From assembly GCF_030811715.1 (NCBI RefSeq), contig NZ_JAUSRH010000001.1:372001-436000 (forward strand): a DNA stretch of 64,000 bases. Reading direction: 5' to 3'. This stretch comes from Sinomonas atrocyanea. GTDB lineage: Bacteria > Actinomycetota > Actinomycetes > Actinomycetales > Micrococcaceae. The position numbers were made by a program, and so were the translations under genes. The first letter of the stretch is position 1, and the number at the start of each line of letters is the position of its first letter. Of the stretch, positions 56,994 to 64,000 are shown one piece after another. The notes beneath the pieces were generated by a model. That model was given only the letters and a program-made list of their open reading frames with translations, had not been told where the DNA came from and did not search any database.

Positions 56994-57892
56994 CGCGCTC
57001 CCCCCGCCCGGCGCCCGTAGGCGACGCCCACCACGGCGGCGGCGACGGCGACGAGCAGGAGCGCGAGGGCCACGGCGGCGTCGGGATCGGTCTCGCGCTG
57101 CAGGTACACCTCGAGCGGCAGGGTGCGGGTGACCCCCTGGAGGCTTCCGGCGAACGTGAGGGTTGCGCCGAACTCTCCGAGTGAGCGGGCGAAGGCGAGC
57201 ACGAGGCCGGAGGCGAGGCCGGGCAGCACGAGCGGGAGTGTGACGCGGCGGAACGCATGGGTCGGGGAGGCGCCGAGGGTCGCGGCGACGGCCTCGTAGC
57301 GGCCGCCTGCGGTGCGCAGCGCACCCTCGAGGGAAACCACGAGGAAGGGCAGCGACACGAAGGCCTGCGCCATGACCACGGCGGCAGTGGTGAACGCGAC
57401 CTGCACGCCGAGCACGTCGAGCCAGCGCCCCACGAGTCCCAGCCGGCCGAACGTGTAGAGGAGCGCGAGGCCGCCCACCACGGGGGGCAGCACGAGCGGC
57501 AGGAGCACGAGGGCGCGGAGCCAGCGCAGGCCGGGCACGCTGCCCCGGGCCAGGGCCATCGCCATCGGCACCCCGAGCAGGAACACGAGCGCGGTGCTCG
57601 CCGCCGCCGTCGTCAGGCTCAGCCGGAGCGCGGCGAGGGACGCGTCCGAGGTGACGAGCGGGACGAAGTGCGGCCAGTCCACGCGGGCGAGGATCCCCAC
57701 GAGGGGAACGACGACGAACAGGGCCCCGACCGCCGCGGGCGCCCAGAGCCAGGCCGGGAGCCCCGTGAACCCCCGGGAGGTGACTCTCAGGAGGTGGTCC
57801 CCAGGCCGTTGCCGCGCTGAGGGGTCATGTCCCTGCATTGAGGGGTCATATCCCTGCGCTGAGGGGTCATGTCCCTGCGCTGAGGGGGTCAT
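56990..57892 (-). CDS. modB: Molybdate ABC transporter permease with repeated N-terminal tail
   Basis: A 300-residue permease with five or six helices. The binding-protein-dependent transport loop [20 protein letters not shown] (EAA-like motif) contacts Mod[21 protein letters not shown] is the ModB signature and [19 protein letters not shown] precedes it. The first 28 residues, [13 protein letters not shown] followed by [15 protein letters not shown], are heptapeptide repeats coded by a 21-bp tandem repeat (57815-57892), which normal ModB proteins lack. ATG overlaps the modA stop (ATGA). The true start could be after the repeat. Confidence 0.9.
57815..57892 (-). repeat. 21-bp tandem repeat at the 5' end of modB
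   Basis: Unit CGCTGAGGGGTCATGTCCCTG (plus strand, shown in parts: CGCTGAGGGGTCATG, TCCCTG) occurs three and a half times with few changes. Each unit encodes GHDPSAQ in the modB frame and also reproduces the ATGACCCC start context. It may be a replication-slippage expansion or a phased binding array. Confidence 0.8.
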
Positions 57893-58686
57893 GGCGCGCC
57901 GAAGCCGGCATCCGCGAGCACCTTCCGTCCCTCTGGGCCCGCGACGTAGTCCGCGAACTCGTGGGCGAAGGCCTTGTCCTTCGCGTCGCGCAGCACGGCG
58001 ACCGGGTAGCGGTTCACCGCGGAGGCGGCCTCGGGGAACGGCACCGCGGCGACCTTCCCGCCCGCACCGCGCGCGTCCGTGGCGTACACGAGCCCGGCGT
58101 CCGCCTCCCCGGAGACGACCTTCCCGAGAACGTCGGTCACGTTCGACTCCTGCGACACCGGGGCCAGGGCCACGTGGGCCGCCCCCGCCGCCGCCTGCGC
58201 GGCGGCCCCGCACGGCACCTGCGGCGCGCAGTCGACGAGCCTGAGCCCGGGGCGGGCAAGGTCCGCCAGGCCCTTGATCCCCGCGGGATTGCCGGGCCGC
58301 ACGGCAATCGTGAGCACATTGGTCGCGAAGTCCGCGGGCTCGCCGTCCGCGAGCCCGGCCCCGGTGACCTTGCCCATGGTCCTGGCGTCCGCGGACGCGA
58401 AGACGTCCGCCGGGGCGCCGTTGGCGATCTGAGCCGCGAGGTCGGAGGAGCCGGCGAAGCTGAACGCGACCGTGGTGCCGGGGTGCGCGGCCTGGAACTG
58501 CCGCCCGATCGCGGTGAAGCTCTTCTGGAGGGAGGCCGCGGCGAACACCGTGACGGTGCGGCCTCCGCCGCCGGACGACGCCGCGGGGCCGCCCGCCGCC
58601 GTCGCCCCGCCGCACGCCGTGAGCAGCGCGGCGAACGCGAGGGACCCGAGCCCGAGCCCGGCCAGCGCCCCCACTGGGCGCCTCAC
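57889..58686 (-). CDS. modA: Molybdate-binding lipoprotein
   Basis: A 265-residue solute-binding protein: signal and lipobox LLTACGG (Cys25), then [40 protein letters not shown] and [12 protein letters not shown], where Ser residues bind the oxyanion; [16 protein letters not shown] is the second ligand loop and [20 protein letters not shown] the ending. GTG 58684-58686 follows GGGAGGG and overlaps the TOBE regulator stop (GTGA). Confidence 0.94.
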
Positions 58687-60999: not shown

Positions 61000-61013
61000 T
61001 TTGTCTCGGCCCC

Positions 61014-62030
61014 CTACCCGGCCCCGCCGCCGGCCGCTCCCACCGTCAGGGGCAGCGGGAGCAGCTGGGGCAGGAGCCGGTTGAGGACCTGGTTGTAGAC
61101 GATGCCGCTCCACTGCGGGCTCGCGTGCGCCGGGAACGCCCCGATGGTCTGCGCATCCGAGCTGACCAGGTTCTTCGCGAACAGCCGCTCCCACCGCGAC
61201 CGGGCGGAGGCGTAGTCCACGGTCTGGTCGCCCGGGTTGCCGATGAACGCCATCTGCACGGTGCCGAGCGAGTCGGTGAACCGGGTGGCGTCCCACTGGT
61301 AGATGTACTCCGACTCGCTCTGGATGAGCACGCTGGAGGGCGCGAGCGGCGAGAGCTGCTCGAGGGTCTGGTTCACGACCTGGCCCCATGTCCGCTCGTT
61401 CTTGTGCACCACCCGCTCGCCGAACTCGTACCCGCCGCGCACCACGGAGGGGATCCGGACCCCGAGGTCGTACAGGTACACGACCGAGTCGAACCAGGTC
61501 TGGTCGAGGACGTCGAACTTCGAGGCGGGTGTCGAGTCGAGGAGGATCACCTCGACCTGGAGGCCGTCCTCGGAGAGCAGCCTCGCAGCGGCCTCGACGG
61601 CCACCATCCCACCGAACGAGTGCCCGTAGAAGTACAGGGTGCGCAGGCGCCGCTGGCGGATGTAGACCCGCAGGGTGTCCAGGATCTCGTCCAGGTCGAG
61701 GCCCAGATTGGAGTAGCCCACGGCGGCGAGCTGCCCCCGCTGCGACAACGAGGACCGCAGGGAGGCGAGGATGATCCTCGCCTCCTCCCAGCTCGTCTTG
61801 TAGCCGGGGAACAGGATCCAGGAGGTGCCGGGGAAGCGCTGCCGCGCGGCGTCGTCCGCGAGGTCGAGCAGGACCGTCTGGCGCCGGCGGCTCTGCACCT
61901 CGCGGGTGACGAACATGTCCGCGGCGAGCAGCGCCGAGGCCGTCGCCCCGCCGAGGAAGGCACGGCGCGAGAACGCCTTGACCCGCAGGGCCGCCCGGAG
62001 CAGAGCCGGGTCTACGGATGGTCCCCCCAC
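61014..62030 (-). CDS. Tat-exported alpha/beta hydrolase
   Basis: A 338-residue protein with a twin-arginine signal: KAFSRRAFLGGATASALLAA near residue 20. The alpha/beta-hydrolase fold is visible in TSWILFPGYKTSWEEARIIL, LYFYGHSFGGMVAVEAAARL (nucleophile Ser in GHSFGG), VILLDSTPASKF and FIGNPGDQTVDYASARSRWE (Asp loop). No lipase or protease subtype can be assigned. GTG 62030 has a weak ribosome-binding site and lies 22 bases after pyrE, so it may be translated from the pyrE message. Confidence 0.8.
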   Translation of the reverse strand: MGGPSVDPALLRAALRVKAFSRRAFLGGATASALLAADMFVTREVQSRRRQTVLLDLADDAARQRFPGTSWILFPGYKTSWEEARIILASLRSSLSQRGQLAAVGYSNLGLDLDEILDTLRVYIRQRRLRTLYFYGHSFGGMVAVEAAARLLSEDGLQVEVILLDSTPASKFDVLDQTWFDSVVYLYDLGVRIPSVVRGGYEFGERVVHKNERTWGQVVNQTLEQLSPLAPSSVLIQSESEYIYQWDATRFTDSLGTVQMAFIGNPGDQTVDYASARSRWERLFAKNLVSSDAQTIGAFPAHASPQWSGIVYNQVLNRLLPQLLPLPLTVGAAGGGAG

Positions 62031-62052
62031 GTCACTGCCCGGGCCAGGTCCC

Positions 62053-62631
62053 TCAGTCGAGACCGAGCTCGTCCTTCCCGAAGGCGTAGAGGTACGGCAC
62101 CCCGGCCTCGGCCTCGATGCGCTCCTTCGCGCCCGTGGCGCGGTCCACGATGACGGCCACCGCGGTCACCTCCCCGCCCGCGTTGCGCACGCCCTCGACG
62201 GCCGCGAGCGCCGAGCCGCCCGTGGTCGAGGTGTCCTCGAGCACCACGACCTTGCGGCCCTCCACGCCCGGGCCTTCGACCTGCCGGCCCATGCCGTAGG
62301 ACTTCTGCGCCTTGCGCACCACGAACGCGTCGACGGCGCGGCCGGCCTCGCGGGCGGCGTGCATGACGGCGGTGCCCACCGGGTCGGCGCCCATCGTGAG
62401 GCCGCCCGCGGTGTCCATCTGGACCCCGGCGCTGTCGATGAGGTCCAGCATGACCTGGCCCACGAGCTGGCTCGCCTCGTGGTGCAGCGTGATGCGGCGG
62501 AGGTCCACGTAGTAGTCCGCTTCCTTGCCACTCGAGAGGATCACCGTGCCCCGCACCACGGCGAGCTCCTTGATGAGCTCCAGCAGGCGGGCGCGGGCGG
62601 CGGCGATGTCAACGGGTGCGGCGTCAGTCAT
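62053..62631 (-). CDS. pyrE: Orotate phosphoribosyltransferase
   Basis: A 192-residue enzyme that joins orotate to PRPP in UMP synthesis. RGTVILSSGKEADYYVDLRR is the orotate and dimer loop, GGLTMGADPVGTAVMHA the PPi loop, RKAQKSYGMGRQVEG the flexible catalytic loop with Lys, and VVVLEDTSTTGGSALAAV the PRPP-binding motif. The ATG at 62629-62631 is used; a longer frame to 62727 runs through repeats and is not supported. The 460-base region upstream is an unusual repeat array. Confidence 0.95.
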   Translation of the reverse strand: MTDAAPVDIAAARARLLELIKELAVVRGTVILSSGKEADYYVDLRRITLHHEASQLVGQVMLDLIDSAGVQMDTAGGLTMGADPVGTAVMHAAREAGRAVDAFVVRKAQKSYGMGRQVEGPGVEGRKVVVLEDTSTTGGSALAAVEGVRNAGGEVTAVAVIVDRATGAKERIEAEAGVPYLYAFGKDELGLD

Positions 62632-63090
62632 GGCACCGATTCTAGTGGCGACGCACGACGGCGCGTGGTCGCCCCGGCCTCTCCCTCCCCCGCCCCGCGA
62701 AGTCACCCCCTGGAACCGCGAAGTCACCCCGTAGCGCGCGAGTCATCACCCCGCGGCCTTCCTCCCCAGCTTTCCTGCACTCGTCCCCAGCTTTCAGGCT
62801 CCGCACTCAGCTGAGGCGGGGGATCAGACAGATGACGCTGGCCTCACGCGCGCCAAAGTCGGGGAGCACAGCAGCGAATGTTGGGGAGGACTGCAGGGAA
62901 AGTCGGGGACGACAGCCACGGGTGACCTGAGAGCATTCGGAGGCCACCGGCGTCGGGCGTCACCACGCCAGACCCGACCTCGCGCACCCACGGGGTGACC
63001 TCGGGCCCACACCGGGTGACCTCGGGGTTCTACGGGGTGACCTCGGGCCCACACCGGGTGACCTCGGGGTTCTACGGGGTGACTTCGCGG
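62632..63090. repeat. Intergenic mirror-symmetric array of 21-22 bp phased repeats
   Basis: Left outer: GCGAAGTCACCCC at 62697 and 62718, plus a decayed copy near 62738 (21-base phase). Left inner: TCCCCAGCTTTC at 62763 and 62784 (21). Right inner: AAAGTCGGGGA at 62855, AATGTTGGGGA at 62877, AAAGTCGGGGA at 62899 (22). Right outer: GGGGTGACCTCG-type units at 62992, about 63013, 63034, about 63055 and 63076 (21; the longer period is 42). The outer and inner families on the right are near reverse complements of those on the left. No gene is seen in the array. The gap starts at 62632 with the recurring ACGCACGACGGC motif. Confidence 0.85.
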
Positions 63091-64000
63091 TCAGGCGGGG
63101 AGGGAGAGGTTCTCGACGATGTGCTCGGCGATGGCCATCGACGAGGTCGCCCCGGGCGAGGGCGCATTGCGGATGTGGGTGATGCGGCCGCGGCGCTGGA
63201 TCGCGAAGTCGTCCACGAGGCTGCCGTCCCGGTTCATGGCCTGGGCCCGGATGCCGCGCGAGGCGCCCACGGCCCGTGCCCCCTCGAGCGCGGGGACGTA
63301 CCGGCCGGCCTCGGCGATGAAGCGCGCGGGCGAGGCGAGCGTGCGGATCTCCCGCGCCGCCGTGGCGAGGTTGTGGCCCGAGAACCGCCAGAAGCCGCCG
63401 AAGGACAGCGTGGACGCGACGTCCCGCACGTCGAGGCCGAGCCCCGCGTATCCCTCGCGGGAGAGGGACAGGAAGGCGTTGGGCCCCACGGTCATCTCGC
63501 CGTCGACCCGTTTGGTCAGGTGCACGCCGAGGAACGGGTAGCGCGGGTCCGGGACGGGGTAGACGAGGCCCCGGACCACGTCTCGGTAGTCGGGCTCGAG
63601 GACGAAGTACTGGCCGAGGAACGGCACGATGGCCGGCCCCGCCTCCTCGCCGGACCGGGCGGCCAAACGGTCCGACTGCAGCCCCGCGCAGGCGATGACC
63701 GCGTCGAAGCTCTCCTGCCCCTCGGCCGTCTCCACCGTCGCCGACGCACCGGCCTCTGTCACGGCCCGCACCTCGGCGCCGAACCGGACGGTACCGCCCG
63801 CGGCGCACGCGTCGTCGAGGAGGGCCTCGGTGACGCGGGCGTAGTCCACGATGGCGGTCTCGGGCGAGTGGAGCGCGCGCCGGCCCACGGCATGGGGCTC
63901 GATCTCGCGCAGCTCGCCGGGGCCCACCATGTGCACGCCGGGCACCCTGTTGGCGACCGCCCGCTCGAAGATCCGCTCGAGCCTGGCCTCCTCGTCGGAG
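63091..64000 (-). CDS. lhgO: L-2-hydroxyglutarate oxidase (LhgO), C-terminal part
   Basis: The last 303 codons are present; the N-terminal FAD loop lies beyond base 64000. MVGPGELREIEPHAVGRRAL, HSPETAIVDYARVTEALLDD, VIACAGLQSDRLAARSG, FLGQYFVLEPDYRDVVRGLV, YPVPDPRYPFLGVHLTKRVD, TVGPNAFLSLSREGY and the C-terminal NMRDGSLVDDF-like stretch (read AMNRDGSLVDDF) and ITHIRNAPSPGATSS match the DAO-family LhgO group. It would oxidise L-2-hydroxyglutarate to 2-oxoglutarate with transfer of electrons to quinone or O2. Its stop codon abuts the last repeat of the array at 62632-63090. Confidence 0.92.
   Translation of the reverse strand, partial: SDEEARLERIFERAVANRVPGVHMVGPGELREIEPHAVGRRALHSPETAIVDYARVTEALLDDACAAGGTVRFGAEVRAVTEAGASATVETAEGQESFDAVIACAGLQSDRLAARSGEEAGPAIVPFLGQYFVLEPDYRDVVRGLVYPVPDPRYPFLGVHLTKRVDGEMTVGPNAFLSLSREGYAGLGLDVRDVASTLSFGGFWRFSGHNLATAAREIRTLASPARFIAEAGRYVPALEGARAVGASRGIRAQAMNRDGSLVDDFAIQRRGRITHIRNAPSPGATSSMAIAEHIVENLSLPA

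Follow-up and report, generated by a model that had tools for sequence, protein, structure and literature searches.

Convergent pairs of 21-base repeat arrays recur in Sinomonas genomes and look like docking sites for DNA-binding proteins

Results

The window, by which we mean the whole 64,000-nucleotide stretch of Sinomonas atrocyanea DNA analysed here, contains towards its right-hand end two minus-strand genes separated by a dense block of short repeats. The first gene (62053..62631) is called as a phosphoribosyltransferase (Pfam Pribosyltran, 2.5e-07) and we take it to be pyrE, a name adopted in part from an earlier interpretation of the DNA letters (the sequence-only reading). The second (63091..64000) encodes an FAD-dependent oxidoreductase (Pfam DAO, 9.4e-31; presumably LhgO-like), runs off the window and is referred to below as the oxidase gene. 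Upstream of pyrE, the sequence-only reading had described two nested repeat families, each present on both sides in opposite orientation, and their coordinates confirm two outer arms and a set of inner repeats arranged in this way. The left outer arm (62698..62752, plus strand) comprises three units of CGAAGTCACCCC in 21-base phase, two of them at 62698-62709 and 62719-62730 and a degenerate third at 62740-62752. The right outer arm (62992..63087, plus strand) comprises five units of GGGGTGACYTCG spaced exactly 21 bases apart (starts at 62992, 63013, 63034, 63055 and 63076), of which three open with GGGGTGAC and two with CGGGTGAC (CGGG), and it contains a 42-base higher-order repeat. The stop codon of the oxidase gene (63091-63093) abuts this arm, and a perfect 20-base inverted repeat pairs 62715-62734 with 63072-63091. 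At the inner end of the right outer arm lies a further in-phase unit, CCCGACCTCG (62973..62982, plus strand), whose core is that of the CGGG dialect of other species and which we read as a probable older relic. Between the outer arms are the inner repeats, all on the plus strand: two copies of TCCCCAGCTTTC set 21 bases apart on the left (62763..62795; copies at 62763-62774 and 62784-62795), and three AAAGTCGGGGA-like units set 22 bases apart on the right (62855..62909; starts at 62855, 62877 and 62899), the middle one being AATGTTGGGGA. A short motif around CGCACGACGGCG (62655-62680) was also seen to recur, as short BLAST matches, near or inside array pairs, including in pair cores.

As a loose single motif with two mismatches allowed, the outer unit is not rare in these 64 kb: 37 matches were observed against 28 expected, a number reached in 8 of 100 shuffles. 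It is the phased array and not the single unit that exceeds chance, as judged by a TRF score of 189 for 62990-63087 and by an exact two-unit pattern that matches 79 times in the window genome (G000) and gives 0 matches when read backwards.

Control of pyrE, one of the functions suggested in the sequence-only reading, is unsupported. In S. atrocyanea DS1015 (G005), the closest congener by pyrE (96.5% identical), the gap between pyrE and the oxidase gene is 37 bp and holds no array, and in a second congener (G013) the counterpart has a single unit on the left, two on the right and two inner repeats. In stretches with up to 1.5 kb of flank from the other 12 congeners, BLAST found no oxidase gene adjoining pyrE. 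Because the site is array-free in DS1015 and reduced in G013, control of pyrE is not the conserved role. The DS1015 junction has TGACC in common with the array and retains TGACCTCGCGCC; the array-free site looks like a deletion by short homology. The nested use of two families, which had been taken for a distinctive design, was observed at this locus and at its G013 counterpart. Across the genus the inner family is uncommon: with one mismatch allowed, its two-unit pattern matched 14 times, in 7 of 15 genomes. It is the paired outer arrays that prove to be the general rule.

Searches of the window genome and its relatives for the repeat units showed that the arrays recur, in intergenic DNA and with the 21-base phase conserved (335 of 350 intergenic steps). 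BLAST of the locus against the window genome returned 93 places, only part of which hold arrays. Thirty stretches fetched around the BLAST clusters make up, with the window, a set of 31, and 26 of these carry an arm of three or more units. Among 58 genomes searched with the exact two-unit pattern, three congeners gave 134, 67 and 62 matches, the other 11 congeners gave 0-5 each, and one further genome gave a single match. A scan of 84,980 species genomes, a collection that may omit the window's own genome, returned 60 stretches with the exact pattern, namely 58 from Sinomonas, one from a Micromonospora and one from a beta-proteobacterium; outside Sinomonas we found isolated matches only. A three-unit pattern matched the window genome alone among 394 genomes of the class, in a draw that held no other congeners, and the constant part of the unit repeated three times at 21 bases was found in 9 of 15 genus genomes and in two others among 295 genomes of the family. 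Neither array pattern matched in four congeners (G001, G006, G007 and G009), and a 400 kb sample of G009 yielded 21-22-base arrays solely of other kinds, located in three stretches; the outer array family is therefore dispensable.

Read from the outside of an arm inwards, each unit consists of a 12-base core, CGAnGTCACCCC, followed by a looser 9-base spacer, and repeats every 21 bases. Intragenic steps keep to this length as closely as intergenic ones (147 of 153), as counted with a chain finder that accepted only steps of 20-22 and 41-43. In arrays found by TRF independently of any motif (three or more copies, core position 4 omitted; 40, 40, 25, 33 and 15 arrays in the window genome, Sinomonas sp. 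R1AF57 [G004], ASV486 [G014], G003 and G011, respectively), the core agrees with the majority of its own array at 0.95, 0.96, 0.92, 0.91 and 0.92, and the spacer at 0.87, 0.88, 0.79, 0.84 and 0.84. The contrast is larger when units are pooled across loci (core 0.90-0.97, spacer 0.66-0.73), these units having been picked by the core pattern with up to one mismatch, and 13 of 705 steps skipping a unit that failed it. The spacer carries a species flavour: position 16 of the unit is G in 87% of window-genome units and T in most of those from R1AF57 (80%) and ASV486 (66%). For the two members of a pair, spacer identity is 0.476 (44 pairs), as against 0.50-0.52 for unrelated loci of the same genome. 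The only symmetric stretch in the unit is GGTnACC, which is missing from the GGGG dialect.

Neighbouring arms are almost always arranged with one polarity. Where arms of at least three units lie no more than 1.5 kb apart, the cores of both point inward (FR) in 53 of 56 neighbouring pairs, the remainder being one RF, one RR and one FF. By genome, the FR counts are 16 of 17 in the window genome, 16 of 17 in R1AF57, 10 of 11 in ASV486, 6 of 6 in G011, 2 of 2 in G003 and 1 of 1 in each of G010, G008 and G002, where the R1AF57 and ASV486 loci derive from the exact-match scan and are biased to well-kept arrays (53 of its 58 Sinomonas stretches were used, the remaining five coming from other species). 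Beyond 1.5 kb the neighbours are three RF, one FF and one FR. Twenty further stretches of G003, which partly overlap the four G003 loci of the main set, gave 12 FR among 14 pairs, with one RF and one FF. Admitting two-unit chains, which we judged noisy (one mismatch in ten bases) and set aside in favour of arms of at least three units, dilutes the rule to a weaker form (78 FR, 24 RF, 25 FF and 17 RR within 1.5 kb). The polarity is not set by G/C skew, since all six pairs of the GGGG dialect in G011 obey it with the G run on the opposite strand. Arm-to-arm distances range from about 0 to 1.2 kb, with maxima of 1.15, 1.18 (G003) and 1.22 kb in three sets that were searched up to 1.3-1.5 kb only; 41 arms had no partner found, in some cases perhaps because the fetched stretch ended too soon or because the partner is short. 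Helical phasing of the arm-to-arm gap is not claimed: a first set of 44 gaps of up to 300 bp was positive (period 10.5, p = 0.003) and the G003 set was negative (p = 0.95 for 11 gaps and p = 0.45 for all 16). A replication-strand bias of the arrays, first read among the matches listed for the two-unit pattern, was dropped because these do not cover every match.

Arms are located just downstream of genes, in gaps between convergent genes, or inside genes as in-frame parts of protein linkers. Among 93 intergenic arms, 42 are in convergent, 44 in tandem and 7 in divergent gaps, the same stretches offering 20, 49 and 27 kb of such DNA, respectively; 39 more arms are intragenic. These placements refer to stretches of over 5 kb chosen for their arrays and annotated with a simple purpose-made gene caller. 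All the intragenic arms that were placed against Pfam domains fall in linkers. In a dihydrolipoyl acyltransferase they flank the E3-binding domain on both sides (a pair present in the window genome, ASV486 and S. notoginsengisoli), and in a tellurite-type protein an arm lies between PRTase_2 and TRSP. Pairs at the DUF4194, PRTase_2-TRSP, chorismate-binding and LUD genes each occur in two or more species. The DUF4194 gene (locus L033, 4971-5951; also L165 and L177) has in-frame arms at both its ends, and we take DUF4194 to be part of MksBEF/Wadjet-type SMC operons. At the Ter locus, both arms stand at the same two places in seven of nine genomes, built of CACCCC units in six of them and of CGGG-type units in the seventh, G002. 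In G011 the linker arm alone is present, made of GGGG units, and neither arm was found in S. notoginsengisoli KCTC 29237 (G012). About 0.9 kb of resident coding DNA separates the Ter arms, and that gene domain is also present in S. notoginsengisoli, where both Ter arms are missing.

In other Sinomonas species the core takes a different dialect (GGGG or CGGG), in many cases at loci shared with the window genome. Cores are mostly CGGG-type in G008, G010 and G002, and G011 has 56 exact three-unit matches in 4.0 Mb. When 28 window-genome loci were mapped into four relatives, a chain of at least three units in any dialect was found within 0.3 kb of the window-genome place at 6 of 25 loci in DS1015, 6 of 26 in G013, 11 of 24 in G011 and 6 of 24 in S. 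notoginsengisoli; two-unit chains, which include chance pairs, were near that place at 15, 18, 17 and 11 loci, respectively. By TRF, an array with a GRTGGGG core is present in 12 of the 24 G011 regions (hand count), in one case about 0.8 kb off the window-genome place. Of 49 window-genome arms, 16 have a CGGG core in the unit immediately inside the arm, none has one immediately outside, and one does at a control offset on the inner side; the corresponding inside and outside counts are 7 and 3 of 32 for ASV486 and others, and 1 and 0 of 54 for R1AF57. We read this pattern as older units inside and newer ones outside, at least for the window genome. Between G003 and ASV486, whose flanks are 95-100% identical, the number or identity of units differs at all eight comparable loci (a ninth has no full counterpart), with the caveat that ASV486 is a draft assembly and may inflate differences in unit number. 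Among 96 strain-specific units, 36 are one substitution away from a unit of the other strain. Only six occur at another fetched locus of their own strain (chance level about 3%), on which ground exchange between loci was rejected as the driver of turnover; array turnover looks mostly local.

The paired architecture is not tied to one sequence, because it is shared by a second family and by a pair in G009. The second family is represented in the window by an unrelated 21-base array of GAGGGGTCATGTCCCT (57814..57893, plus strand), which overlaps the stop end of a solute-binding-protein gene that we presume to be modA-like. Its two-unit matches (up to two mismatches) occur in 9 of 15 genomes, with 45 in the window genome, 47 in DS1015, 24 in S. 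notoginsengisoli and 13 in R1AF57. Within 1.5 kb, 15 inverted pairs of this family share one polarity and 2 have the opposite one (hand count), with gaps of 2-1045 bp; some of these pairs are probably orthologous. The G009 pair, in a genome from which the outer pattern is absent, is a 22-base inverted pair of a third unit type. Several other repeats were noticed in passing. Inverted repeats resembling AAGTGCCGTTTTCGTCGG lie inside or beside outer-family arrays (in the pair cores of L050, L048 and L032) and look similar, by eye, to the 22-base G009 arrays at L327. Tandem 22-base arrays with CGTGAC-containing units occur at L060 (3185-3340) and L033 (1360-1475), and L059, L172 and L162 have 22-base arrays of related, GTTGYGGGGTCTCTGGCGG-like units.

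Discussion

The array at the pyrE locus is one case of a larger system of paired arrays in the genus. To us these arrays look like docking sites for DNA-binding proteins that have so far gone unrecognised as a set. The 21-base phase, the contrast between core and spacer, the single polarity, the species dialects and the unit differences between close strains are all direct observations, and the best explanation for them, which we favour tentatively and at less than even confidence, is that the phased cores are bound by a protein and the arms bridged. The 12-base core of each unit would then be the recognition site of a putative sequence-specific DNA-binding protein, and units two helical turns apart would place the bound copies on one face of the DNA. 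Two convergent arms, about 0-1.2 kb apart, would be bridged when bound, making a small DNA loop or clamp, in most cases positioned where a gene ends or enclosing a short gene or protein domain. It is somewhat more likely than not that the core is read by a protein, since a core steadier than its spacer, a two-turn phase and a change of dialect together indicate sequence-specific proteins. The sequence-only reading had proposed a multi-site protein-binding array; the recurrence, phase and steadier core bear this out, and the binding itself we infer. Bridging of the two arms of a pair is less likely than not: one polarity and short pair distances indicate that the arms act together, but the arm-to-arm phasing expected of a stiff short loop appeared in the first set of gaps and was absent from the G003 set. 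As for what a loop might do, compaction or the limiting of read-through between neighbouring genes is a guess. A doubtful extension of the same idea is a kilobase-scale, bacterial rule of convergent sites: proteins of fast-changing specificity would bind the phased arrays and form short loops between convergent arms alone, enclosing gene ends or single genes; each species would have a recognition word of its own, and one genome would house at least two separate systems of word and protein.

That unrelated families have the same architecture counts against binding, for it fits a process blind to sequence equally well. Almost as likely as protein-bridged arrays is repeat growth that is driven by the sequence itself and serves no host function: slippage would multiply units, fold-back (template-switch) synthesis within the roughly 1 kb of single-stranded DNA at a fork would make the inverted partners, and selection would merely remove copies that break genes. 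Such growth could account for units that differ at all eight loci compared in near-identical strains, for the paired form common to unrelated families, and for the largest pair gaps (1.22 and 1.18 kb, and 1.05 kb for the GAGGGGTCATGTCCCT family, in searches to 1.3-1.5 kb). At the pyrE locus the inverted repeat moreover continues beyond the arrays and enters the oxidase gene at its end, with 13-base perfect arms, which suggested snap-back copying as the rule. However, homology past the arrays is not general (mean score 7.9 over 46 pairs, 7.6 for cross-pair controls), the pyrE locus alone reaching p of about 0.01, as one pair in 46 might by chance, and snap-back copying as a rule was rejected. 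Nor are the spacers of paired arms more alike than those of different loci, and the core varies less than the spacer. We know of no fold-back model that accounts for one polarity, which also counts against growth of this kind.

The remaining explanations appear less probable than either of these. Transcribed arms might pair into a long stem, serving to terminate transcription or to protect 3′ ends, a role that would suit arms placed after genes and in convergent gaps and short-gap pairs resembling near-perfect hairpins. The long RNA or cruciform structure envisaged in the sequence-only reading is possible at the pyrE locus, where the predicted RNA fold is strong (z -6.85), but does not extend to the pairs in general, whose spacers are no more alike or complementary between their two arms than between unrelated ones. 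An RNA-level element is unlikely on further grounds: arms also lie in coding linkers; no intrinsic terminator (GC stem and T run) was found at 62500-63300 (shuffle mean 0.3) and no Rfam family matched 61000-64000 up to E = 1; and, by eye, ordinary-looking hairpins stand ahead of the array at L031 and L032. Quite improbable, too, is a role as DNA-uptake or recombination signals, species words that bias exchange. Neisseriaceae DNA uptake sequences (PMC3630211) come in dialects of species-specific words with a shared part and number thousands of copies per genome. Sinomonas units likewise have species-typical words around a shared part (which some, but not all, of the search patterns themselves require, one being free of it) and occur in coding DNA and at gene ends. 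They differ in standing in arrays, each of the four array-rich genomes having between 62 and 134 exact two-unit matches rather than thousands of single copies, and the scarcity of strain-specific units at other fetched loci of the same strain (6 of 96, with about 3% expected by chance) argues against exchange. The ends of a mobile element, be it a fold-back or Tn7-like transposon or a REP/RAYT system, could explain inverted arms of tandem repeats and the array-free site in DS1015, and are the least probable of all. That site seems rather to resemble a deletion, the DNA between the arms at the one locus examined in this respect (Ter) is a resident gene domain shared with a genome that has neither arm there, and the Y1 (RAYT-type) transposase PF01797 had no match in any of the 15 genomes of the genus, against 5 positives among 14 controls.

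The docking-site arrays proposed here have partial parallels among known systems. REP/BIME units are short palindromes, and the elements come with RAYT transposases. Sinomonas arrays resemble them in being dispersed, in their placement at gene ends and in their inverted pairs, but have a non-palindromic unit in strict 21-base tandem phase and no Y1 transposase match in the genus, and REP/BIME with RAYT was rejected for these reasons. Iterons of plasmid origins are also direct repeats about two helical turns apart, with bridging of arrays (handcuffing) as a model, whereas the Sinomonas arrays are dispersed over the chromosome. Fold-back transposons share the inverted arms of short tandem repeats; they differ in that the inter-arm DNA here is resident host sequence, as seen at the Ter locus, and that no Y1 transposase matched in the genus. 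Convergent CTCF sites provide a precedent for a polarity rule of paired sites, the present arrays being bacterial, on the kilobase scale and served by a putative protein. Among the titles listed in a literature search covering mostly papers outside subscription, none describes an element of this kind. Dispersed bacterial repeats are well known, but we know of none that combines near-uniform polarity, 21-base phase, dialects at shared positions and unit change at the level of strains. If proteins read the arrays, these would constitute an unrecognised layer of actinobacterial chromosome organisation; if no protein does so, they would offer a clean system for the birth and orientation of inverted tandem arrays. 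In either case, the polarity rule is directly testable.
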